Source: Acidimicrobiaceae bacterium
Lineage (GTDB): Bacteria > Actinomycetota > Acidimicrobiia > Acidimicrobiales > Poriferisodalaceae
Direction: 5' to 3'
DNA length: 64,000 nt
NCBI GenBank assembly: GCA_002721305.1
Contig: PBKA01000019.1
Coordinates: forward strand, 1 to 64,000
Part shown: positions 24,607-39,706 of the stretch, one piece after another
Layout of the letters: every line of letters begins with the position of its first letter
Numbering within the stretch: the stretch's first letter is position 1
Translations under genes and position numbers: made by a program
The notes under the pieces: model-generated
Databases searched by the model: none
The model's input: only the letters and a program-made list of their open reading frames with translations
What the model was told of the DNA's origin: nothing

Positions 24607-25958
24607 AAACAACGGAACGCCAGATTGTTTTAGTTGGTTTTCTCCAAGCTCAGAACTGCACCACGATTCCCGCTGCATGGCGTCACCCTGAAGCGCGACA
24701 CGATGTTACGAATGTCGGCTTCTACCAGGACATAGCCAAAATCTTAGAAAGAGGGTTTTTCGATCTGGGATTCTTTGATGATCGCCTGGCCATGCCCGAC
24801 ATGTATGGCGGAGATCACCGCCACACCGTCGAGCACGGAATTAGGTGCGTGAAGTTAGATGCGGTGACTGTTTTGACGACGATGGGAATGGCCACCGAGA
24901 AGTTGGGGTTAGGGGCCACGTACTCCACCACTTATTTCCCACCGTTTCATATAGCACGCGTGTTCTCAACCCTCGACCACATGACAGGTGGGCGAGCAGC
25001 TTGGAATGTTGTTACCTCAGTCAACGACAACGAAGCTAGAAATATGGGGTTGCCCCAAGCACCAGCCCATGACGTTCGTTACGACCGAGCAGATGAATTC
25101 ATGGAGGTTGTCCATGGGCACTGGGACACCTGGGAAGCTGATGCTGTGATCGCGGACCGGACAACCGGTCTATACGCCCAAGGAGACAAAGTCCATCGGC
25201 TAGATCACAAAGGAGATCATTACAGCTCACGGGGTCCATTCACGGTGCCGCGAACTCCCCAAGGTCACCCGGTGATCATCCAAGCGGGTCAGAGCGGTCG
25301 TGGGATCGAGTTCGCTGCCCGCTGGGGTGAGCTCTTGTTTATGTCGAACCCGACTCTCTCACGGGCAAGTGAAAATTATGCACAGGTCAAAACTGCGGTA
25401 GAAGCAGCGGGGCGAGACCCTAGTCAGGTAAAGATTGCGAACCTCACTTTTCCTGTCGTAGGTCGCACTATGTCCGAAGCCGAAGACAGGCGCGCGGCCT
25501 ATGACCTGCTTCCCAACCTGATCGACGATCTTTCTTTGCTGTCTGAGGGATTGAACTTTGACTTCTCGGAAAAAGAGCTCGACGATCCACTCTCTGCCGA
25601 AGACGTGGCCGCTATGACTGGCATTCAAGGAATTCGAAATCAGGTCATCGAAGTGACAGGAAAGGACACTCCCACTCTTCGAGACTTCGTTAACGTCTCA
25701 GGGCGCGGCCGCTTAGCTCACCCGGTAGTAGGTGGACCGACCGAATTAGCCGATTACTTTGAGGAATGGTTCACCACTCCAGCCTGTGACGGCTTTGTCA
25801 TTGCAGGGACCCACATGCCAGGCGCCTTCCAAGACTTTGTTGACCTTGTTGTTCCAGAACTTCAACGGCGAGGACTCTTCCGCACCCAATATTCAGGCAA
25901 CACGCTCCGGGATCATCTTGGATTGACCCAGCCCATACCAGGGGCTTGGCGACGCTAA
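24603..25958 (+). CDS. NtaA/DmoA/SnaA-type FMN-dependent (LLM-class) monooxygenase
   Basis: QNCTTIPAAWRHPEARHDVTNVGFYQDIAKILERGFFDLGFFDDRLAMPD ... RAAWNVVTSVNDNEARNMG ... FTVPRTPQGHPVIIQAGQSGRGIEFAA. GTG overlaps the prior stop. Confidence 0.94.
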   Translation: MKTTERQIVLVGFLQAQNCTTIPAAWRHPEARHDVTNVGFYQDIAKILERGFFDLGFFDDRLAMPDMYGGDHRHTVEHGIRCVKLDAVTVLTTMGMATEKLGLGATYSTTYFPPFHIARVFSTLDHMTGGRAAWNVVTSVNDNEARNMGLPQAPAHDVRYDRADEFMEVVHGHWDTWEADAVIADRTTGLYAQGDKVHRLDHKGDHYSSRGPFTVPRTPQGHPVIIQAGQSGRGIEFAARWGELLFMSNPTLSRASENYAQVKTAVEAAGRDPSQVKIANLTFPVVGRTMSEAEDRRAAYDLLPNLIDDLSLLSEGLNFDFSEKELDDPLSAEDVAAMTGIQGIRNQVIEVTGKDTPTLRDFVNVSGRGRLAHPVVGGPTELADYFEEWFTTPACDGFVIAGTHMPGAFQDFVDLVVPELQRRGLFRTQYSGNTLRDHLGLTQPIPGAWRR

Positions 25959-26872
25959 TTTCCCGCTGAAAAAGCCGCAAAAGCTTCGACAATGTCCCCG
26001 CCTCGTGCCGTCCAAATATCCTGAAGCTTCGTGATTTCAGCCAATGCCCGATCGAGGACTCGAATTCGGAATGGTTGCCCGGTGAGCCAAGGGCGAAGAG
26101 TCAACATCATGTGGCGAGCAGACATTTGACCATCTGCATGCAGACGATTTGCGGCTGAAACAATCATCTTCTCCCAACTATTCAGGCTCGCCCTGCGCCG
26201 CCAAAGAGCGAACTCGTCATCGATTTCCAGAAAGAGCGGCAAAGAGACTAGATCGCCAGCCGGCGTCGTCATCTTGTATGGCTGTTCATCGTTCGGCCAA
26301 TCACACACATACCTCACACCAGCGGCAGCCAACAAGGCGGGCGTTTGACTGGACTCAACGCCTTCGGGAGAAAACCACCCTTGAGGGCGTTGACCAGATG
26401 CTTTTTCCAAGAAATCAAGCGATTCGTCGATCATTTCAGCTTCGGACTCTTCGGTCATTTTGGAAGTGATGAGTCGGCTAGCCGCTATTCCGTGCCCCAC
26501 CAGTTCGCATTCACGGGCTTGTAAATGATCGATCAGCCAGGGGTAGTGCATGGCGGTGAGTTGATCGACTGCGACCGTCACCGGAACGTTGTGTCGTTCC
26601 AGGGTGTCGAGGAGTCGGAAAATTCCGACGCGATGACCGTATTCCCGGTGGGTTAGATGAACATAATCAGGCGCAGGTAGTTTGATTAGACCGCCACTTG
26701 GGTTCCGCAAACTGTACGCGTCCGGAGGCGGCTCCCACTCGTAGTGTTCCAGCAAGATCAACGCCCCCAAGGCAAGGGGTTGTCCACCGGGCCAGGCCAG
26801 GGGATCTCTATCAGGAAGAGGGGAGTAGCCGTAGTGTGAGTGGTCCATACCCGGGGAACGGTCAGCGGGCAT
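25955..26872 (-). CDS. Polysaccharide deacetylase family protein (PuuE-like)
   Basis: YGHRVGIFRLLDTLERHNVPVTVAVDQLTAMHYPWLIDHLQARECELVGHGIAASRLI. Confidence 0.85.
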   Translation of the reverse strand: MPADRSPGMDHSHYGYSPLPDRDPLAWPGGQPLALGALILLEHYEWEPPPDAYSLRNPSGGLIKLPAPDYVHLTHREYGHRVGIFRLLDTLERHNVPVTVAVDQLTAMHYPWLIDHLQARECELVGHGIAASRLITSKMTEESEAEMIDESLDFLEKASGQRPQGWFSPEGVESSQTPALLAAAGVRYVCDWPNDEQPYKMTTPAGDLVSLPLFLEIDDEFALWRRRASLNSWEKMIVSAANRLHADGQMSARHMMLTLRPWLTGQPFRIRVLDRALAEITKLQDIWTARGGDIVEAFAAFSAGN

Positions 26873-27785
26873 TTTGCACCGTGTTTATGGTTTTTGAGTG
26901 CTGAACAAACTCTTCGTAGTGATGCTCCATGAAGTGATCGGCGATTTCTGAAGCTGTCGCCTGCCACACGAGATCGTGACCCAAGAGGTATTCCAAGATC
27001 TCCTCCAAGCCTTCAATCCTGTGTGGCATGCCCATCAGATAGGGATGTAGCGCTAGGGCCATTACCCGACCAGAACTGGCTCCTTCTTCGTAAAGAGTGT
27101 CGAACTGGGCTTTCGCCATCTCAACGAAGTCCGCTGTGTCGTGATGATGAAGGAACACTGGAACGTCATTCAACTCGATGCTGTAAGGAACAGAAACAAG
27201 GCGACCATTGTCCACTTGAATCGGTATTGGCTGATCGTCGTGTAGCCAATCGGCGTGATAGGTGAGACCGGCATCGGCCATTAGATCCGGAGTGCGAATT
27301 GTGTTGCTTACAGCGGGACCCAACATGCCGCGGAGTTGCTGGCCGGTATGACGCCGAAGCGTTTCGACGCACTCAAGGTAAAAGTCGCGTTCCTCTTTCT
27401 CGGTTAATGAGGACAGATACCTGGTGTTGTAAATGCCGTGACTCATGATCTCCCAACCACGGTCAACCATCGCTTTTCCAATATCGGGGTAATGGTCAAA
27501 CACGGCCAGATTGGTCGAGGCCGTGCACTTCACGTCGTACTGATCGAGTACGTCCAGCATGCGCCAGAAGCCAACTCTATTTCCGTAATCGCGATGCGCG
27601 TAACCCTGAACGTCTGGATGCGGTGAACGAGGCCACGGATTTCTGGTTGGATCCCTCGGCGGCAAGTATTCGTAATGTTCAACGTTTGGCGCTATCCACA
27701 GGGCGACCTTGGCCTCATTTGGCCAAGAAATGCTGGGACGATCTGCCATTGGCAAATAGTCGACGCGATGCGGAGGTAATGGCAT
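26862..27785 (-). CDS. Polysaccharide deacetylase family protein (PuuE-like), paralogue of the adjacent gene
   Basis: YGNRVGFWRMLDVLDQYDVKCTASTNLAVFDHYPDIGKAMVDRGWEIMSHGIYNTRYLSSL; overlaps the neighbour by 11 bp. Confidence 0.87.
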   Translation of the reverse strand: MPLPPHRVDYLPMADRPSISWPNEAKVALWIAPNVEHYEYLPPRDPTRNPWPRSPHPDVQGYAHRDYGNRVGFWRMLDVLDQYDVKCTASTNLAVFDHYPDIGKAMVDRGWEIMSHGIYNTRYLSSLTEKEERDFYLECVETLRRHTGQQLRGMLGPAVSNTIRTPDLMADAGLTYHADWLHDDQPIPIQVDNGRLVSVPYSIELNDVPVFLHHHDTADFVEMAKAQFDTLYEEGASSGRVMALALHPYLMGMPHRIEGLEEILEYLLGHDLVWQATASEIADHFMEHHYEEFVQHSKTINTVQNAR

Positions 27786-27862
27786 ATCAGCACCGTAGTC
27801 ATAATGACTGCTGGAAGGGAGCTATCGTCCAAAGGAAGAATTCGCAGTTCAAGGGGGGATCG

Positions 27863-30295
27863 GTGCTCAGCGAGTACAGAGTTTTGGATCTAACTGACGA
27901 ACGTGGCCACTTGGCCGCATTCATTCTCGCTCAGATGGGGGCCGAAGTGATAGCGATTGAACCCCCGTCAGGTTCAAGCGCGCGCAGGCTCGCACCATTT
28001 GCTGACGGTATTGATGATGGGGAACATTCGCTCCACCACTGGGCCTACAACCGCGGCAAGAAGAGTGTTGTGTTGGATGTAGAGACACCTGAGGGACTCA
28101 AAGATCTCCGGGGTCTGATAGCTGGAGCGGATCTGATGTTCGACTCTTATGATCCAGGTGTCATGGAGTCATTGGGTTTGACACCTTCAGATGTCGCTGA
28201 AATCAACCCCCAGATCATTAGTGTCTCCATTACCGCTTTTGGCAGCGATGGACCGAAAGCAAACTGGGCGCACAGTGATTTAACGCTCCAAGCAGCCGCG
28301 GGAAACATGGTGTTAACCGGCGATGAAGATCGGTCGCCCCTCAGGGCTGGTGGAACTTTGCCACAAGCATTCGGTAACGCTGCATCGGAGGCGGCCGGGG
28401 CAGCGTTGATAGCGTTATTCGAGCGACAATCGACATCCGGATTGGGTCAACACATAGACGTGTCGGCTCAGCATTCAATGAATCAATGCACGCAATCGAA
28501 CTCTTTAGCGACCCCGTTGGGAGCAACGCCCCCGACCAGACTTGCTGGCGGAGTGGAACTCGGAGGGATCCGTATCCAAGTGATGTGGCCGTGCTTGGAC
28601 GGTCACGCGTCAGTCAGTTTCTTGTTCGGACCTGCCTTCGGTCCCTTCACAAAGAACCTGATGACTTGGGTATGGGAAGAGGGTTTCTGCGATGAAGCGA
28701 CCCGAGACAAGGATTGGGTCGATTACGCGATGATGCTCCTCGATGGTCGAGAATCACCTGAGGAGTACCAACGAGTTAAGGATGTCCTGACGGAATTCTT
28801 TGCTACTAAGACCAAAGCCGAGCTTTTGGAAGCGGCGATGAAACGTCGTGTCCTGATAACGCCGGTGACTACTACTGAAGAGGTAGTCAATAGCGAACAG
28901 CTGGACTTTCGTGGTTATTGGGAATCGGTCGAACATAGTGACGGCTCGATCGTCGATTACCCCGGATCGTTCGCCAAGTTCACGCAAAGTCCCTTAACGG
29001 TGTTGGGAGCACCTCCGCGTCTAGGTGAACATACGGTCGAGGTGTTGGGTGAATCCGAACGAGTGGCCCATGCGTCAACCGAGCCCGTCGCGTCCACGGC
29101 GTTGCCGCTCCAAGGGGTGAAAGTTTTGGACTTCATGTGGGCTATGGCGGGCCCCGCTGCTTCGCGAGTGCTCGCAGATTATGGTGCGGACATCATCAGG
29201 GTTGAGTCGGCAAACAAACTCGACGCGGTTCGAACGATCTCCCCTTTTCCAGATGATGTTGCCGACACGGATAAATCAGGGATTTATCACAATATGAACG
29301 CTGGGAAACGGGGTCTTACTCTCGATATGTCCAAACCGGGCGCGATAGACGTGATATGGGATCTCATCGACTGGGCAGATGTGGTCCTCGAATCGTTTTC
29401 ACCTAAGGCGATGTCGGGGTGGGGTATCGACTACGAGCAGATTCGGAAGCGGCGACCAGACATCGTGATGGCATCGAGTTGTTTGATGGGACAGACGGGT
29501 CCGCTGGCGATGCTGGCCGGTTTCGGCACCATGGCGGCAGCAATATCGGGCTTCTTTTACCCAGTCGGTTGGGTCGATCGCGCTCCAACAGGCCCATACA
29601 GCGCGTACACCGACTACACGTCGCCGCGTTGGCTTGTTGCGTCTGTGATGGGAGCTCTCGAACACAAACGCCGAACTGGTGAGGGCCAGTACATAGACCT
29701 TTCTCAGGCTGAGGCAGCCCTACACCTTATGAGCCCGGCGTTGCTGGAGTATTCCGTGAATGGAAACATCTGGGAACGTGATGGCAACCGCGATCTTATC
29801 TTTGCGCCGCAAGGGGGATACCCGACCAAAGGAGATGACAACTGGATAGCAATCTCGTGCCAGGACGATGATCAGTGGGGATCTTTGGCACGAGAAATGG
29901 GTGTGGATGACATTGTTCATCTCACCAGTGATGAGCGGCGAGATCGACACGACGAGCTTGATTCGCTCATTTCCTCTTGGACTGCGGAACAAGACGGCCT
30001 TGAACTAATGGAGCGGCTCCAATCTCTCGGAGTGGCCGCTCACATCGTCCAAAATTCACCTGAATTGGTAGCGGATGACCAAATGACGCATCGACGCTGT
30101 TTCGTGGAAGTCGCGCACGCGAGCCACGACCCGTTTTTCGTCGACGGTACTCGTTTTCACATGTCGCGAACCCCGGCTCAGGTGACTCACGCTGGTCCGA
30201 TATTCGGAGAACACAGCTTCGAGATTTTGATGGAATGCGCAGGCTACGACGGAGACGAAATAGCGGAACTTGCGGTGGCAGAACTTTTGGAATAG
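27863..30295 (+). CDS. Tandem two-domain CaiB/BaiF (class III) CoA-transferase
   Basis: Two successive CoA_transf_3 domains: EYRVLDLTDERGHLAAFILAQMGAEVIAIEPP and GVKVLDFMWAMAGPAASRVLADYGADIIRVES. GTG 27863 preceded by aagggggga SD-like sequence. Confidence 0.93.
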   Translation: MLSEYRVLDLTDERGHLAAFILAQMGAEVIAIEPPSGSSARRLAPFADGIDDGEHSLHHWAYNRGKKSVVLDVETPEGLKDLRGLIAGADLMFDSYDPGVMESLGLTPSDVAEINPQIISVSITAFGSDGPKANWAHSDLTLQAAAGNMVLTGDEDRSPLRAGGTLPQAFGNAASEAAGAALIALFERQSTSGLGQHIDVSAQHSMNQCTQSNSLATPLGATPPTRLAGGVELGGIRIQVMWPCLDGHASVSFLFGPAFGPFTKNLMTWVWEEGFCDEATRDKDWVDYAMMLLDGRESPEEYQRVKDVLTEFFATKTKAELLEAAMKRRVLITPVTTTEEVVNSEQLDFRGYWESVEHSDGSIVDYPGSFAKFTQSPLTVLGAPPRLGEHTVEVLGESERVAHASTEPVASTALPLQGVKVLDFMWAMAGPAASRVLADYGADIIRVESANKLDAVRTISPFPDDVADTDKSGIYHNMNAGKRGLTLDMSKPGAIDVIWDLIDWADVVLESFSPKAMSGWGIDYEQIRKRRPDIVMASSCLMGQTGPLAMLAGFGTMAAAISGFFYPVGWVDRAPTGPYSAYTDYTSPRWLVASVMGALEHKRRTGEGQYIDLSQAEAALHLMSPALLEYSVNGNIWERDGNRDLIFAPQGGYPTKGDDNWIAISCQDDDQWGSLAREMGVDDIVHLTSDERRDRHDELDSLISSWTAEQDGLELMERLQSLGVAAHIVQNSPELVADDQMTHRRCFVEVAHASHDPFFVDGTRFHMSRTPAQVTHAGPIFGEHSFEILMECAGYDGDEIAELAVAELLE

Positions 30296-30310
30296 GCCCG
30301 ATGGTTAGGG

Positions 30311-30335
30311 ACCCGATTCTGTAGTCAAGTCGGGT
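30311..30335. terminator. Possible bidirectional terminator hairpin between convergent genes
   Basis: acccga-ttctgtagtcaag-tcgggt inverted repeat in the 46-bp gap between convergent stops; short stem. Confidence 0.35.
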
Positions 30336-30341
30336 AAGGAG

Positions 30342-32414
30342 CTACCAAGTGTCGACCATCGGTCGTTTTTTCCCATCTCGAGAACCTGGCGGCGGAGCGG
30401 ATTTCAGGGCCATGGAGATCCAGGTTCGGGTCTCGGCGGGATCAATGACGTCATCTAGTTCAAAGAAGGTGGCGGTACTGACCGCCTTGCCGTTTTCATA
30501 GAGTTTCGCCACCATCTCTTCGTAATAGGCGATGCGTTCCTCAGGGTCTTCTATCGACTCGAGTTCTTTGCGATACCCGAGTTTCACGAAACCTTCTAGG
30601 CCCATTCCCCCGAACTCGCCGGTAGGCCATGAGACGCAAAAGACTGGGGCTTTGAAGCTACCGCCGGCCATCGCTTGAGCCCCCAGGCCGTAGCCCTTGC
30701 GTAAAACCACGGTCATGAAAGGCACGGTCACGCTGGCAGAGGTCACAAACATTCTGCTTGCATGACGAACTGTGGCCTCATATTCGGCCTGTGGTCCAAC
30801 CATTATTCCTGGTGTGTCGCACAGAAAGATCAACGGGATATCGTGCGCGTCACATAGTTGCATGAATCTGCTGCCTTTATCCCCGACATCGGCATCGATG
30901 GCGCCACCCAAATGGTGGTTGTTGTTGGCGATGATTCCTACTGGGCGACCTTCTACTCGTGCCAGAGCGGTAACGCACCCCGGTCCCCACCCCCTGCGAA
31001 TTTCCAACACCGAGTCAACATCGCACATGGTTTCAATCACTTCGCGAACGTCATAAGCCCGGAGACGGTTCTCGGGAACAATGTGCCTCAACAAGCGCTG
31101 ATCGGGTGCTTCCCAATCGTCGATCGGTCCTTGGAAGTATGAGAGATATTTCTTGGCGGCCTCCATAGCTGCGTCTTCGTCCTCAACGAGGATGTCAATG
31201 ACTCCATTTGGATATTGAACATCGACGGGCCCCACTTCTTCTGGGCGGAACACTCCCAGGCCTCCGCCTTCGATCATCGCGGGACCACCGATCCCAATAT
31301 TTGAGCCTTCGGTGGCGATGATCACGTCGCAGCAACCAAGTAACACTGCGTTCCCGGCAAAACAGCGTCCGTTGGTCACGCCAACTAGGGGAACTAACCC
31401 TGAGAGTTTCGCGAAGAAGGTGAAAGCCCAGCAGTCCAATCCCGCTCCGCCCATCGTGTCGGTGTCGCCGGGGCGTCCACCTCCACCCTCAGCGAGCAGA
31501 ACAGTCGGGAGTTTGTTGTGTTCGGCAATTTCAAAGAGCCTGTCTTTCTTGCGGTGGTTTTGGAGTCCCTGAGTGCCAGCTAGGACCATGTAGTCATAGG
31601 ACATCACCATGGTCTGAGCAGCTTGTTCATCGAACAGGTCGCCGTTTACGCTGCCGATTCCGGCGACCATGCCGTCGCCCTGGGTGTTGTCGATGAGGTC
31701 GTCCAGGGTTCTTCTTCTTCGTTGCGCCGCGACCATGAGTGGCCCGTATTCGATAAAGGTGCCCTCATCAACCAGTCTTGACAGGTTCTCTCGAGCTGTC
31801 CGATGGCCTCGACCATGGCGTTTCTCCACGGCTGTCGGCTTCGCTTCGTCCATGCCTTTGTAATGACGGTCGAAAACTTCTTGCAGGTCGGGTCTGATGA
31901 AGTCAAGATCAACTCGGGATTCACTTTCCCCTCGTTGAATCTCTAGATCAGCTTCTTCGATGAAGAGGAGCGGATGTCCCTCATAGATGGTGTCGCCTTT
32001 GCTTACACCAAGGGAATGAACGATGCCGGTGACGGTCGACGCGATGACGTGTTCCATCTTCATTGCTTCCATGACAGCGACAGGTTGACCCTCAGCGACC
32101 TCGTCCCCAGGGATCACATCAATAGAGATGATGGTGCCTTGAAGTGGAGCTTCCACTGCTTGCGTGCCGTCAGGTCCAGCAGCCGCGAGGTTCTGACCTC
32201 TATCCGATGCGCGTTCGTTTTCTCTTCCGTCGATATCGCCATGCTCGAGAACAGCTAAGGGGTCGCTGCTCACTTGTGCACCCGCAAGGGAGGTGGTCGG
32301 ACTACTGGCAGTTGCGGCTGCGGGAGGGGTCTTTAATGAAATGTGTTGTGCTGCTTCCGCGAGCTCTGCCGCGAACTCTGCGATGAAACCAGTTGTGATG
32401 TCGTTGGATTGCAC
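30342..32414 (-). CDS. Biotin carboxyl carrier + carboxyltransferase part of acyl-CoA carboxylase
   Basis: Biotinyl motif VAVMEAMKMEHV followed by a full carboxyltransferase (GGGRPGDTDTMGGAGLDCWAF ... GIIANNNHHLGGAIDADVGDKGSRFMQLCDAHDIPLIFLCDTPG). In frame with the upstream ORF across one TGA (see findings). Confidence 0.93.
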   Translation of the reverse strand: MQSNDITTGFIAEFAAELAEAAQHISLKTPPAAATASSPTTSLAGAQVSSDPLAVLEHGDIDGRENERASDRGQNLAAAGPDGTQAVEAPLQGTIISIDVIPGDEVAEGQPVAVMEAMKMEHVIASTVTGIVHSLGVSKGDTIYEGHPLLFIEEADLEIQRGESESRVDLDFIRPDLQEVFDRHYKGMDEAKPTAVEKRHGRGHRTARENLSRLVDEGTFIEYGPLMVAAQRRRRTLDDLIDNTQGDGMVAGIGSVNGDLFDEQAAQTMVMSYDYMVLAGTQGLQNHRKKDRLFEIAEHNKLPTVLLAEGGGGRPGDTDTMGGAGLDCWAFTFFAKLSGLVPLVGVTNGRCFAGNAVLLGCCDVIIATEGSNIGIGGPAMIEGGGLGVFRPEEVGPVDVQYPNGVIDILVEDEDAAMEAAKKYLSYFQGPIDDWEAPDQRLLRHIVPENRLRAYDVREVIETMCDVDSVLEIRRGWGPGCVTALARVEGRPVGIIANNNHHLGGAIDADVGDKGSRFMQLCDAHDIPLIFLCDTPGIMVGPQAEYEATVRHASRMFVTSASVTVPFMTVVLRKGYGLGAQAMAGGSFKAPVFCVSWPTGEFGGMGLEGFVKLGYRKELESIEDPEERIAYYEEMVAKLYENGKAVSTATFFELDDVIDPAETRTWISMALKSAPPPGSRDGKKRPMVDTW

Positions 32415-32462
32415 CTCTGGTCGATCAAGTAAAGCGAGGAGGTAGGTGATATTGGTCAGGAC

Positions 32463-33725
32463 TCATTCAATGCGAAACTCGCTCAAAGCACGTTTCACCC
32501 GGCGAACGACATCTTCGTAGTTGTTGCTGGGGGAGTGTGCGATCACCTTTGCGATCAAAGAGTCAAAGTTGGGGTTGGTTGGGTAACCCTGATATCCGTA
32601 GGAGTCAGTCCTGATTCCAGGTCCCGTCGGCGTTTCGTAGGTGGAAATGGTTCCGCCGGTGGGACGAGCTGACCCTTCATCAGTCATTGTCTCGGTGTTC
32701 ACGCGGCACTGAATTGCGAAACCACGAGGTGTCGGCACTTCGTCTTGCCGGAGATTCAGGTCAGAAAGAGAGGCACCTCCAGCTAGCAGCAGCTGACTGC
32801 GAACTAGATCGATTCCCGTGACTTCTTCGGTAACGGTGTGTTCAACCTGTAGTCGAGCGTTCGTTTCAATGAAGGCGACAGTAGAGAAGTCGTTTGTGTC
32901 GACTAGAAATTCCCACGTCCCTAGGCTCCGATAGTCAACGTGGGAAGCCATTCTTGTTGCCGAACTGGTTAGCAAGTCGCGGAGATCAGAACCGATTGAA
33001 GGAGAAGGCGCGATTTCTACAATTTTTTGGTTCTGCCTTTGGAGAGTGCACTCCCGCTCACCCAAGTGAACAACAGCGGTCCCGTCCCCGATGATCTGGA
33101 CCTCCACGTGGCGAGCACTTTCTATAAGCCGTTCGGCATACACGTCGCCGACTCCGAAAGCGGACATTGCTTCGCTTTGGCATCGCTCGAAGATGCTCCC
33201 TACATCGTCGCCGCGTCGGACCTCGCGCATGCCTCTGCCACCGCCGCCAGCGACGGCTTTGATCATGACTGCCTCGTGTTCGTCTAGGAACGCCTCGACG
33301 TCCTCCAAACTCGCTGAAGCGGGTGTAGCGGGTACCAATGGAACGTCAAGCTGTCCTGCAAGCTCTCGAGCTGCAACCTTGTCGCCGAACAACGCCAAAT
33401 GTTGTGAAGACGGACCGACGAAAGTAATTCCCTCGCTTTCCAAAGCAGATGCGAAGTCAGAATTTTCGGCGAGAAAACCGTACCCTGGATGGACTGCATC
33501 ACATCCTGTGGTGATGGCTGTCTCAACGAGTTGCTTGATGTCCAGATAGGCGGCGACACCGCTTCCCTCCAAGCCTCTCGACTCGTCGGTGATCTGTGTG
33601 TGTAACGACGAGTGGTCATCGGTGCTGTAAATAGCCACGCTCGGGATACCAAGATCTTCAGCGGCTCGAGCTATGCGTATCGCGATTTCGCCACGATTCG
33701 CGATGAGGAGCTTTTCTACAGGCAT
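32463..33725 (-). CDS. Biotin carboxylase part of acyl-CoA carboxylase; C-terminus cut by in-frame TGA
   Basis: MPVEKLLIANRGEIAIRIARAAEDLGIPSVAIYS, KAVAGGGGRGM, FIETNARLQVEHTVTEEVTGIDLV. ORF ends ...RRVKRALSEFRIE-TGA, where biotin carboxylases normally continue G-V-x-T-N-I. Confidence 0.94.
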   Translation of the reverse strand: MPVEKLLIANRGEIAIRIARAAEDLGIPSVAIYSTDDHSSLHTQITDESRGLEGSGVAAYLDIKQLVETAITTGCDAVHPGYGFLAENSDFASALESEGITFVGPSSQHLALFGDKVAARELAGQLDVPLVPATPASASLEDVEAFLDEHEAVMIKAVAGGGGRGMREVRRGDDVGSIFERCQSEAMSAFGVGDVYAERLIESARHVEVQIIGDGTAVVHLGERECTLQRQNQKIVEIAPSPSIGSDLRDLLTSSATRMASHVDYRSLGTWEFLVDTNDFSTVAFIETNARLQVEHTVTEEVTGIDLVRSQLLLAGGASLSDLNLRQDEVPTPRGFAIQCRVNTETMTDEGSARPTGGTISTYETPTGPGIRTDSYGYQGYPTNPNFDSLIAKVIAHSPSNNYEDVVRRVKRALSEFRIE

Positions 33726-33790
33726 TTCATCCCTCTCAAGAGACACTTTTCCATGCCCGTTCTACAACATCTGAGCCGTGTTGTTCCTGC

Positions 33791-34624
33791 TCACTTCCCA
33801 GGAAGCCTCGGAAGGATCACGGCAACTTGTCGAACGAGTGCAACTTCGGTTCCATGGGTGTCTATGAACACGGCGTCCGTCGTCGACCACGGTTTTCCTT
33901 TTCTCACTTCGACGTCACCCCATCTCCCGGCCACGACCACATCACCATCTGCTCGGAAGGAATTCAAATGTTGCACTCGACCTGATGCATGGACCCCAGC
34001 AGGCATGCGATAGGAATGTCTGATGAGTGGAGTCATCTGACCCAACACCCAAGATGGGTGAGTTAAAGGGTTATCTCCACTGATCCAGGTGGCCTCATCG
34101 TCGCGGATCCTTTCGCGCATCCAAGTTCTGGCGTCTTCTGCCCTAAGAGGTACTGACATAGGGGGATAATCGAGATCCGTTGGGATGTCGTCGAGGCCGA
34201 GAAAAGGTCGATCGAGTGCCTCCGGGACAGGTGTTCGATCTTTCGGGAGCGAAAAGTCGTTCTTCCATGGAGCGTCACCCAAACCGACAGTTCCTTCTAT
34301 CGTGATACGCCCGTCGGAGGCGACCGTTTGGGTAATTAATCCCACTTGCGGGTTCTGTGGTGAAGGAACAACCTCCGTTACGAGTTCGTCACCTGCATAC
34401 ACAGGTCTGGGGAGCTGAAAGTCGCACCAGCCATGTGACAACCAAGATTCCCCGAGGGAGTCAAGAATTGCCGGAACCATCCAGCCGTAAGTGTGGATCC
34501 CAGCGACGATGCCCCCCGCATAACCATAACCAGTGGCATTTTCATCGTGAACGGGATTGGCGGCCGAGACCTCAGGGGGATCAGCGACAGCCATACGCGA
34601 GCACGATGCAGCGACAACAGTCAT
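33791..34624 (-). CDS. MaoC-like / FAS1-like double hotdog dehydratase-type protein
   Basis: YGYAGGIVAGIHTYGWMVPAILDSLGESWLSHGWCDFQLPRPVYAGDELVTEV ... VQHLNSFRADGDVVVAGRWGDVEVRKGK. Confidence 0.68.
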   Translation of the reverse strand: MTVVAASCSRMAVADPPEVSAANPVHDENATGYGYAGGIVAGIHTYGWMVPAILDSLGESWLSHGWCDFQLPRPVYAGDELVTEVVPSPQNPQVGLITQTVASDGRITIEGTVGLGDAPWKNDFSLPKDRTPVPEALDRPFLGLDDIPTDLDYPPMSVPLRAEDARTWMRERIRDDEATWISGDNPLTHPSWVLGQMTPLIRHSYRMPAGVHASGRVQHLNSFRADGDVVVAGRWGDVEVRKGKPWSTTDAVFIDTHGTEVALVRQVAVILPRLPGK

Positions 34625-35358
34625 GAGCCCGACTTTAAATTACGATCGAACAGGGAATGCAGTAACTCCCAGTGTCGTTCCGAAGCCACTTGGTCGTACT
34701 TTGGGCGTTGAGAGAATACAAAGCCGTGATGAACGCCGTCGATCCATTCGGCGTTGTAATTGGTTTCGGCGTCGTCAAGTGCGGCCACTAAACGATCAAA
34801 ATGAGGTCGATCAACCCAGTCGTCGAACTCTGCCGCCAAGATCAAAACTTCGCCCTCGATTTCCTGTGCTCGCTTGTGTGGCGAGTCGTCGGCATCGGTA
34901 GCCAACCGAACTCCGTGAACGGATGCGCTCGCCTTGACTGTCTCGGGATGTTCAGCCGCGAGCCACAGAGCAAATGGGCCACTCATGCAATACCCAGTCA
35001 CCCCAACCAGATGTTCGTTAGCCGCCAAATCGGCTGCGGCGTACTCAAGAAGAACAGAGGCGTCTCGCGCCACCATCGCATTGTTAAGGTTGCCCATAAG
35101 TTGTGCCATGTACTTGGCGCTGACAGGGTCCTCTCGGTGAATCGTAAAAGATGGGACATCTCGGTAGTACAGATTTGGAAGCATCACGTAGTAGCCAGTG
35201 GTCGCGATTCGTCTTGCCATGTCGTGAAGTTCTTCTCTTTTTCCCGGAGCGTCCATCAAAAACAAGATGACGGGACAAGCTTCCCCCGACTGAGGATGGA
35301 CGACGAAAGTGGACATTTCGCCCTCGGGTGTTTCGATGACTACGTGCTCTTCGATCAT
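34621..35358 (-). CDS. Dienelactone hydrolase family protein
   Basis: VILFLMDAPGKREELHDMARRIATTGYYVMLPNLYYR, GVTGYCMSGPFALWLAAEHPETVKASASVHGV (nucleophile Cys in GYCMSG). Start ATG 35358; 4-bp overlap with the downstream gene. Confidence 0.9.
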   Translation of the reverse strand: MIEEHVVIETPEGEMSTFVVHPQSGEACPVILFLMDAPGKREELHDMARRIATTGYYVMLPNLYYRDVPSFTIHREDPVSAKYMAQLMGNLNNAMVARDASVLLEYAAADLAANEHLVGVTGYCMSGPFALWLAAEHPETVKASASVHGVRLATDADDSPHKRAQEIEGEVLILAAEFDDWVDRPHFDRLVAALDDAETNYNAEWIDGVHHGFVFSQRPKYDQVASERHWELLHSLFDRNLKSGS

Positions 35359-35810
35359 TGTTGCGAGCCTTTCAAGTCCCATCCCATCGTTCGGGCGGCG
35401 TAAAGGGTGTCGGTGTATTCCTCCATGCGAGTGATTTGACCTTCTTCGCATGAATACACCCAGCAGTACTGGTTGTCGTATCGCTGGCCCTCGGTCTTGG
35501 TGGTGGCGGTCAGTCTTTGTTGAACCGCAGCAGAACCCTCGTCGACAATCATGCTCCGGATCTCCAAATTGAATGGTTGAGAGATATCGAAGGTGTCTAT
35601 GAGGACTCGACCGCCCAACTGTTCGGCCACAGCCTCTCTTCCTCGAACCATCCCATCGGCATCTGAACCACCTGTTCCTGTTTCCCCTGCTGTAACGGGA
35701 AGCTGCCAAACCACGTCGCTGCTCAGACAGGCGTTAATTTCCTTGCGGTCGCCGCGCGTTAAAGCGTTGTAGTAACGCTCAATCAGGGCTCGTGTTTCTT
35801 CAGTGTTCAT
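35355..35810 (-). CDS. SnoaL/NTF2-like protein
   Basis: MNTEETRALIERYYNALTRGDRKEINACLSSDVVWQLPV; start 35810 inferred from domain boundary. Confidence 0.85.
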   Translation of the reverse strand: MNTEETRALIERYYNALTRGDRKEINACLSSDVVWQLPVTAGETGTGGSDADGMVRGREAVAEQLGGRVLIDTFDISQPFNLEIRSMIVDEGSAAVQQRLTATTKTEGQRYDNQYCWVYSCEEGQITRMEEYTDTLYAARTMGWDLKGSQQ

Positions 35811-35864
35811 TCCTTTAGTCCAGCATGTCCGACGCGTCCGTGCTTCCCTGCCTACCATCAGCCC

Positions 35865-36680
35865 ATGGAACAACTTGATTGGACCCCCGAATATTTCCTG
35901 TACGACGGGATTCGACCCCACGTCGCGCAGATCACTATCAATCGCCCAGAAGTCAGAAACGCGATCAACACCCCCGCCCACAAAGAATGGAGTGACCTTC
36001 TTGATCACGCGGCCCATGACGACGACGTCTGGATTGTTGTGATAACCGGAATCGGCGATAAAGCCTTCTGCGCCGGACGCGACCTCAAGTATCTCTCTCG
36101 AATTCAACATTCTTCAGAGGAAGAGAAACAAGCCGACAACGATCTCATGAGAACTGTCGTCAAATTGATTGAACGGTTTGACTATCCCAAACCTCTTATT
36201 GCGAAAGTGAATGGCGTCGCGCTCGGTGGTGGCTTCGAGGTTGCGATGGCATGTGACCTCGTGGTCGCTGCCGACCATGTCGAATTTGGTCTTCCCGAAC
36301 CGAAAAGAGGCATCTACGCGGGAGGTGGCGGAGTGCACCGCCTACCGCGACAAGTTCCATTGAAACTAGCGATGGAGTATCTACTCACCGGCAAATCAAT
36401 GAGTGCAAAACGGGCAGTTGAAATCGGCATCATCAACCAGGTCGTCCCCTATTCCGAATTGGACCAGGCAGTAGATACTTTGATCGATCAAATCATGCTT
36501 GGAGCCCCCCTATCCCTTCGAGCTACGAAACAAGCGGCGATGAGGGGACTGGATTTGCCTTTGGGTGAAGCGTTCTACCGGGATTATCCGGCTGTGAGGT
36601 CCATGATGGAAAGCGAAGATGCTCGTGAAGGGCCGCGAGCCTTTGCCGAGAAACGCCCTCCAGAATGGAAAGGCCGGTGA
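35865..36680 (+). CDS. Enoyl-CoA hydratase/isomerase family protein
   Basis: GIGDKAFCAGRDLKYLSRI ... KPLIAKVNGVALGGGFEVAMACDLVVAADHVEFGLPEPKRGI. Confidence 0.94.
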   Translation: MEQLDWTPEYFLYDGIRPHVAQITINRPEVRNAINTPAHKEWSDLLDHAAHDDDVWIVVITGIGDKAFCAGRDLKYLSRIQHSSEEEKQADNDLMRTVVKLIERFDYPKPLIAKVNGVALGGGFEVAMACDLVVAADHVEFGLPEPKRGIYAGGGGVHRLPRQVPLKLAMEYLLTGKSMSAKRAVEIGIINQVVPYSELDQAVDTLIDQIMLGAPLSLRATKQAAMRGLDLPLGEAFYRDYPAVRSMMESEDAREGPRAFAEKRPPEWKGR

Positions 36681-36683
36681 TCT

Positions 36684-37574
36684 TTAGGGACTTGTGTTGT
36701 TCGCCGTCTTGGATTGGCTAAGAACAATCACGCCCAAGGTGACGAGAACAACTGCCATACCCGCAAACTGAAGAGCCGCCACCTCTTCGCCCAAGAAAAT
36801 CCAGGCCATCACAGTCGCAGTGACCGGAATGGCCAACGTCAGTGTCGAACCGAGCCACGCGGGAATGCGGCTGAGCGACCAGTTCATCAACATGTGGGAG
36901 GTGAAACCGGGTCCTATCGACAGGACGACCAGCCAAACCCAAGCGTTGCTTGACGGCATAGTGAAGACCTGACCCGAAGCTAACGCGAACGGTGTTGCAA
37001 AAAGAGCGCAAATGAGAGCAGTGGCACCCGTGTACTGCGACGATTCAATCTGTCGGCTGCTCAGCTTTGAGAACACGAAATATCCGGTCCAAGCGGCCAC
37101 CACAGCTACGGCGAGCAAGTCGCCCTTGGGGCTCCACCCTTGTACTCCAGTGGAGCCGAACATCACGATCGCGACACCGCAGATCGCAACTAACGCCAGA
37201 AACCAGTGGTGACGCTTGGGTCGTTCACCGAACAACCGACCGGCGATCAACAACATGATCAACGGCTGGCATGACCCAATCACCGTGGCGTTGGCAACTG
37301 TGGTCAAACGCACAGCAGAGAAAAAGAGCATGATGTCTGCGCCTAAAGAAATACCCCCGCGCCACGAGACCCGCAACGAATCCCTACGGAGCGGGGTTCC
37401 TCGAAGTTTCAAGAATAAGAGCACGATGACCGCGTAAATCCACATACGCCAAAAAACGACAGCTAGTGCCCCGAGCTCTGTGATGCCTTTGGCGATGACA
37501 CCTGACGCGGCCCAGCCAACCATGGCGATCGCTGCGGCGGGCACGCCTTTTGTGTTGCTGGTCGTTGCGGTCAC
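36684..37574 (-). CDS. EamA/DMT-family transporter
   Basis: About ten hydrophobic segments, two EamA repeats (GVPAAAIAMVGWAASGVIAKG ... ; LAVAVVAAWTGYFVFSKLS...). Confidence 0.9.
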   Translation of the reverse strand: MTATTSNTKGVPAAAIAMVGWAASGVIAKGITELGALAVVFWRMWIYAVIVLLFLKLRGTPLRRDSLRVSWRGGISLGADIMLFFSAVRLTTVANATVIGSCQPLIMLLIAGRLFGERPKRHHWFLALVAICGVAIVMFGSTGVQGWSPKGDLLAVAVVAAWTGYFVFSKLSSRQIESSQYTGATALICALFATPFALASGQVFTMPSSNAWVWLVVLSIGPGFTSHMLMNWSLSRIPAWLGSTLTLAIPVTATVMAWIFLGEEVAALQFAGMAVVLVTLGVIVLSQSKTANNTSP

Positions 37575-37670
37575 CTAAGAACCGATGCTGGGGAATGGTT
37601 CGCTGACCTCTGATTCACGTGTTCAGGATGCCACTCAATCGGGCCGCCGTCACAGAAAACCGATCGCGCC

Positions 37671-39614
37671 TCACTTATCGGTCAATTTGGGATGGTTGCG
37701 GAAATGCTCCAATGCGTCCGGGTTGTCGATTGCCTCAACGTTCTTCACTTCTCTGCCGTGGATGGAATCTCTGACCGCGAGCTCGACCAGCTTGCCGCTG
37801 CGAGTTCTCGGAATGAGAGGAACTTGTGCGACGACAGCCGGCACGTGACGAGGAGATGCACCTTCGCGAATTTGATTTCGGATCCTTTGAGTCAAGTCGT
37901 CGTCGAGCGCTAGGCCGTCGCGAAGACGAACAAAAAGAACGACCCTTGTATCGGACTGCCACTGTTGCCCTACGACGATGCTTTCGAGCACCTCGTCGAT
38001 GACGTCTACCTGTCGGTAAATTTCAGCGGTTCCGATCCGTATCCCTCCGGGATTTAAGGTTGCATCTGATCGTCCTGAAATGATCATTCCCCCCTCGGAG
38101 GTCCACTCGGCGTAATCACCGTGATGCCAGACTCCTGGAAAGCGATCGAAATAGGCGTTGTGATATTTGGCTCCATCCGGGTCATCCCAAAATTCCAAGG
38201 GCATTGACGGAAATGAGTTGCAACACACCAGCTCCCCTTGAGAACCAGCTAGGAGACGGTTCCCGAGATCGTCAAAGACGGCGACATCCATGCCGAGTGC
38301 CGGGGCCTGAATTTCGCCACGAAACACCGGGCTAGTTGGGTCCCCAATCACAAAGCATCCGCATATATCCGTTCCCCCCGAGAAAGACGCAAGGTGGACG
38401 TCCGGTTTTACCGCGTCATACACCCAGTCGAAACCTTCAGGAGCTAAAGGGGAGCCTGTCGATGCGATTGTTTCCACACTGGAAAGATCATGTGTATCGC
38501 GAGGCCTCAACCCTTCCTTCATGGCAGCTTCAATGAATTTTGCGCTCACCCCGAAAAGCTGTGGCTCTAATTCGTCCGCGAGATCAAAAAGACGAGACGG
38601 CTCGGGAAAAAACGGAGAGCCATCGTAAAGAACCAGTGAGACAGCGGAAGCCAGACCCCCTACAAGCCAATTCCACATCATCCATCCGGTGGTAGTGAAG
38701 TACATCAGTCGATCCCCAGATCTGAGATCGCAGTGCAAGAGGTGCTCAGACCAATGTTTAAGTAACACCCCACCGGCCTTGTGGACAATGCACTTCGGTT
38801 TCCCCGTGGTACCTGAGGAGTACAGAACGTAGATCGGGTGATCGAAACCCAACTGAACAAACTCTGGTTCTCGTTCTTCTGTATTCGCGATCCAATCTTC
38901 CAAGAGAATCGAGGATGGAATTTCGCAGTCAATCGCAGCGTCACCATAACTGACCAGCACCACTCGTCTGAGCGACGGAAGCTCGTCAGCTATTTGAGTG
39001 ACTTTTCCCGTGATGTCGTGGCGGACACCCCCATATGAGTAGCTATCGGTCGCTACGAGAATCTTCGGTTCAATTTGACCGAAACGATCCAGAACTCCCG
39101 CCGATCCGAAATCGGGGCTGGTCGAAGAATAAATTGCTCCGAGACTCGCAGCAGCTAAAAAGAAAATGACGGCCTCCGGACCGTTCGGCAAAAGGGTCAC
39201 TATTCGGTCACCTGACTGGATGCCTTCGAATTTCAGAGCTTGTTGGACCCGCCCAACTGCGACTCTGAGTTCATCGAAGGTCAGGGAACGCTCCACGACG
39301 TTCTCACCTCGATAGGTGATAGCGATGTCGTCTCCAGATCGCCTCATATAGTTTTCTGCAAGGTTGAACTTTGCATCAGGAAAAAAACGAACCCCAGGAC
39401 CGCTCTCGCCGATGTGGTTTGTTTTTCCCAGGTCACCGATGCCAGAAGCGAAATCCCACACAGCCCTCCAAAAGGAGAACTGGTCTTGGACCGACCACCG
39501 ATGCAGATCCCGGTAGGAATTATTTTCGCGGGACAATCCAACGAATTCAGCAAAGTTCCACAAGTTAGAACCCTCGCGGCGAGTTGAACTTGGAATCCAG
39601 AGAGGATGAGTCAC
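37671..39614 (-). CDS. Acetoacetate-CoA ligase (acetoacetyl-CoA synthetase family)
   Basis: AMP-binding motif YVLYSSGTTGKPKCIVHKAGG; AACS-type N-terminus SNLWNFAEFVGLSRENNSYRDLHRWSVQDQFSFWRAVW; GTG start at 39614 inferred. Confidence 0.9.
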   Translation of the reverse strand: MTHPLWIPSSTRREGSNLWNFAEFVGLSRENNSYRDLHRWSVQDQFSFWRAVWDFASGIGDLGKTNHIGESGPGVRFFPDAKFNLAENYMRRSGDDIAITYRGENVVERSLTFDELRVAVGRVQQALKFEGIQSGDRIVTLLPNGPEAVIFFLAAASLGAIYSSTSPDFGSAGVLDRFGQIEPKILVATDSYSYGGVRHDITGKVTQIADELPSLRRVVLVSYGDAAIDCEIPSSILLEDWIANTEEREPEFVQLGFDHPIYVLYSSGTTGKPKCIVHKAGGVLLKHWSEHLLHCDLRSGDRLMYFTTTGWMMWNWLVGGLASAVSLVLYDGSPFFPEPSRLFDLADELEPQLFGVSAKFIEAAMKEGLRPRDTHDLSSVETIASTGSPLAPEGFDWVYDAVKPDVHLASFSGGTDICGCFVIGDPTSPVFRGEIQAPALGMDVAVFDDLGNRLLAGSQGELVCCNSFPSMPLEFWDDPDGAKYHNAYFDRFPGVWHHGDYAEWTSEGGMIISGRSDATLNPGGIRIGTAEIYRQVDVIDEVLESIVVGQQWQSDTRVVLFVRLRDGLALDDDLTQRIRNQIREGASPRHVPAVVAQVPLIPRTRSGKLVELAVRDSIHGREVKNVEAIDNPDALEHFRNHPKLTDK

Positions 39615-39706
39615 GATGTCTCCGAGGGTGTGCAGGTGATGCTTACGGTAGCCGCCAAATCGCTTCAATCAGAAGTGCATCCCCGTAGCGGTGTAGGGTC
39701 CCCAAT

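Follow-up and report, generated by a model that had tools for sequence, protein, structure and literature searches.

The window analysed here, a 64-kb stretch of a draft bacterial genome, contains a predicted acyl-CoA carboxylase gene divided by one in-frame TGA, which raises the question of whether this stop codon is a feature of the enzyme or an accident of a single genome. The source genome, G000 (1.94 Mb, 31 contigs, 89% complete), was compared with four genus mates (G001 to G004) and with further members of its family and order. The best explanation, to which we assign a probability of about 0.9, is a normal single-chain carboxylase gene of an Acidimicrobiales-type lineage, with biotin carboxylase (BC), BCCP and carboxyltransferase (CT) parts in that order, in which one private TGA replaces a glycine codon and has no coding role.

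The interrupted reading frame

The minus-strand frame from 33725 to 30342 comprises 1128 codons with a single internal stop, the TGA at codon 421, without which it is open over 1127 codons with no second stop and no frameshift (LSEFRIE*VLTNITYLLAL around the site). The first-pass annotation had described a lone in-frame TGA between a BC open reading frame (ORF) and a BCCP-CT ORF, and translation bore this out. Both ORFs exist as it had placed them, the upstream one (32463-33746) opening with a GTG at 33746 as well as with the ATG at 33725, and the downstream one (30342-32414) with a GTG. The features of the locus, each with its basis, are as follows.

32463..32465, minus strand: in-frame TGA, codon 421, at a conserved Gly of the BC C-domain (translation, homologue codons)
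32466..33725, minus strand: upstream gene part, BC residues 1-420 (translation, ORFs, Pfam)
30342..32462, minus strand: downstream part in the same frame, with the end of the BC C-domain, BT/linker, BCCP, carboxyltransferase and natural stop (translation, Pfam, 4RCN alignment)
32379..32711, minus strand: PF02785, BC C-terminal domain, split by the TGA (Pfam, residues 339-449)
32055..32066, minus strand: biotinylation motif AMKM in BCCP (residues 554-557)
30402..31820, minus strand: PF01039, carboxyltransferase domain (Pfam, residues 636-1108)
30342..32414, minus strand: mechanical ORF from GTG 32414, a possible but unsupported restart (ORF list)

Read through the stop, the chain contains the Pfam domains Biotin_carb_N, CPSase_L_D2 (ATP-grasp), Biotin_carb_C (339-449), Biotin_lipoyl (524-588) and Carboxyl_trans (636-1108), an order that agrees with the one named in the first-pass annotation as that of single-chain long-chain acyl-CoA carboxylases. 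The codons following the TGA had been taken for the missing end of the BC C-domain, and Biotin_carb_C does extend to residue 449, so that by the Pfam bounds the stop removes the last ~29 residues of this domain. Full-length homologues with up to 87% identity continue past the site; the presence of two same-frame ORFs of one enzyme is therefore not due to chance.

The surrounding region (25955-39668) has many acyl-CoA and related genes. The neighbors include two polysaccharide-deacetylase-like proteins, a two-domain class III CoA-transferase, a dienelactone hydrolase, a SnoaL-like protein, an enoyl-CoA hydratase, an EamA transporter and an AMP-binding acyl-CoA synthetase.

The stop site in related genomes

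The closest named homologues of the carboxylase are in Acidimicrobiales assemblies. Among the matches listed from 98 related genomes of the family and order, all 31 near-full-length orthologous frames are free of stops; a 32nd such frame (G034), matching at 37% and probably a paralogue, was set aside. The closest complete orthologues, from the genus and family, are 82-87% identical over their full length (85-87% within the genus), and the G001 orthologue, which lies in two contig pieces, is 92-98% identical across both. Uninterrupted orthologues (G001-G004, G033 and others) are of equal length and, in those read, have the same start, MPVEKLLIANRG. Stops occur in two distant rows, two TAG in G045 and one TAA in G065, whose matches start at about 460 or 522 and so miss codon 421.

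At the TGA site a Gly codon stands in each homologue read, be it from the genus, the family or several other phyla, and all four synonymous Gly codons are found, in accord with the proposal that the stop sits at a conserved glycine. The non-Gly rows of the motif scan (the second match of L079, L104 and L111) are distant relatives or loosely matched unrelated frames. G001, the nearest genus mate, has GGA at this position with near-identical flanking codons (DNA 92-93% identical), which places the TGA one base away from its nearest relative and fits the suggested single substitution from GGA. All four genus mates keep the gene without the stop. The alignment across relatives that the first-pass annotation had called for thus shows a conserved Gly and neither a TGA nor a true separation of the two parts. 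A Gly codon within an uninterrupted ORF is what that annotation had said would mark an error or a private mutation, both of which were among its options. Judged by this sequence comparison, the TGA is private to the G000 draft genome among the relatives examined. A search for the TGA site in viral contigs found nothing.

The carboxylase shows no loss of constraint and no decay on the G000 branch, where 18 nonsynonymous and 34 synonymous branch-private changes were counted against 18 and 35 on the G001 branch (comparison of G000 with G001-G004). The stop is therefore either very recent or absent from the organism. An apparent surplus of nonsynonymous differences in the BC half (8 nonsynonymous, 4 synonymous) was rejected, as the column filter behind it was stricter and left few sites, and as the larger count did not confirm it. 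Because G000 falls outside the trio G002-G004, a count polarised against those three is uninformative.

Proposed decoding of the stop and the split-gene alternative

G000 is equipped for selenocysteine (Sec) insertion. It has a tRNA-Sec (Rfam RF01852, 54.8 bits, cut-off 47), cut by a contig end, and encodes selA, selB and selD, with selA adjoining selB:

C1:1-90 (minus strand), C26:16068-18884 and C22:5911-6852 of G000: Sec machinery (tRNA-Sec, selA-selB, selD; loci L124, L262, L260, L263)

Its SelD is itself a selenoprotein, whose own TGA lies in frame within the motif expected for it, GAG-U-ACKLGP, and each of the 24 genomes sampled from this Acidimicrobiales-type family, counting G000, has selA. 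A brief search of open papers turned up little on Sec in the group. Given this machinery, Sec insertion at the carboxylase TGA is a fair rival and was tested. For most known selenoproteins there are homologues with Cys in place of Sec (PMC1088965, PMC1794560), but the carboxylase homologues show Gly, never Cys, and G001 lacks the TGA. The SECIS element is a hairpin directly downstream of the UGA with a small apical loop containing G (PMC1088965). Near the carboxylase stop there is no Rfam match, and the RNA 3' of the TGA folds like shuffled sequence (z -0.14). At 66% of background coding sites there is a hairpin at least as good as the best rule-conforming one at the carboxylase, compared with 4.5% for SelD as a positive control under the same rule, which is a rough test built from the general description with spacing limits added. 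The carboxylase was accordingly rejected as a selenoprotein: the host pathway is present, but neither Cys or Sec homologues nor a SECIS element could be found, and we regard decoding of its UGA as Sec as the least probable reading considered here.

The continuation of a conserved frame beyond the TGA could also reflect programmed or efficient read-through, or reassignment of TGA to glycine. TGA, however, terminates 116 of 249 checked G000 genes, ahead of both TAG and TAA, and the genome has prfB (492 bits), which together exclude a general reassignment, as the first-pass annotation had expected from the use of TGA elsewhere. Moreover, G000 yielded no tRNA-Gly whose anticodon is UCA, the sole UCA tRNA being tRNA-Sec, and no relative has TGA at this codon. 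Read-through or recoding, offered earlier as an option, found no sign in its favor and is very improbable; slighter still is the chance that a real TGA fixed in the species is read through to give partly a truncated BC and partly the full-length carboxylase. Such a stop, if true, would be an unusual case of recoding outside redox enzymes, and nothing here supports it. In many carboxylases BC and BCCP-CT are separate proteins, and an in-frame GTG (32414) lies 16 codons past the stop, from which the second part of a newly split two-subunit enzyme might restart. The cut, however, falls inside the BC C-domain, so that neither product would hold the whole domain, and none of the near-full-length homologues listed is split at the site. 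As already remarked in the first reading, there is no well-spaced Shine–Dalgarno sequence before this GTG. The proposed split is hence about as improbable as read-through.

Origin of the private stop

Further private stops were sought in a survey of ~303 genes (~0.5 Mb of G003), with G003 and G000 compared in both directions; stops were left out if they fell in an over-long N-terminus or if their flanks were not conserved. Most of the raw in-frame stops of the first survey had proved to lie in shadow ORFs on the antisense strand or in N-termini that were too long, and had been discarded. G000 has two private stops in the middle of conserved genes, a small number among ~303: the carboxylase TGA and a TAG in GlnRS (C6:170521, plus strand) at a conserved Gln, which G001-G004 retain. 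The reverse comparison from G003 (~303 genes) gave no clear mid-gene stop. GlnRS stops counted in G002, G004 and G006 were dismissed, as they lie within the N-terminal overhang of the query, ahead of the conserved protein start. As side observations, an insertion or frameshift may have disrupted one G003 gene (in L254), and G000 has gatB, so that loss of GlnRS might be tolerated. That two unrelated and otherwise intact genes carry different stop codons accords better with a rate of consensus error or variation in this assembly than with a mechanism peculiar to TGA or to the carboxylase. The second private stop thus speaks for an error or variant rate of the genome as a whole and not for a feature of the carboxylase.

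We consider it probable that the TGA arose as an error of consensus or assembly in this draft, or represents a rare allele, and we infer that this is more likely than a very recent real mutation. If the TGA were real, translation would stop after BC residue 420 and no complete enzyme would be made. A nonsense mutation fixed in the species, as a first step toward loss of the enzyme, is possible but less likely than an error or rare allele. One base change would be enough, ~3.4% of single substitutions in this ORF create a stop, and other BC-BCCP and CT proteins in G000 might partly cover acyl-CoA carboxylation. Nevertheless, the G000 branch is no more relaxed than that of G001, which means that a fixed nonsense mutation would have to be very recent, and its genus mates retain the intact gene. 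A private stop of this kind is most likely ordinary and not a feature of the enzyme. The case is a caution in that a lone in-frame stop, seen in a single draft genome, calls for relatives and reads before recoding or splitting is claimed.

Relative to known systems, SelD and the carboxylase of G000 both carry an in-frame TGA in a Sec-capable genome, but the carboxylase lacks Cys homologues and a SECIS-like hairpin. The enzyme and complex features of single-chain acyl-CoA carboxylases have been described (PMC6491548). The read-through frame and its near-full-length relatives have this single-chain form, and the deposited G000 frame is broken at codon 421. By far the best solved match is 4RCN, a single-chain long-chain acyl-CoA carboxylase with its parts in the same order (376 bits for BC, 712 bits for BCCP-CT), aligned over query residues 5-460 and 520-1104. 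In contrast to 4RCN (EFGVEGVATNI), and to the orthologues of its own genus and family, which have a Gly codon at this position, the G000 gene is interrupted exactly at that glycine, the likeness to 4RCN being one of sequence.
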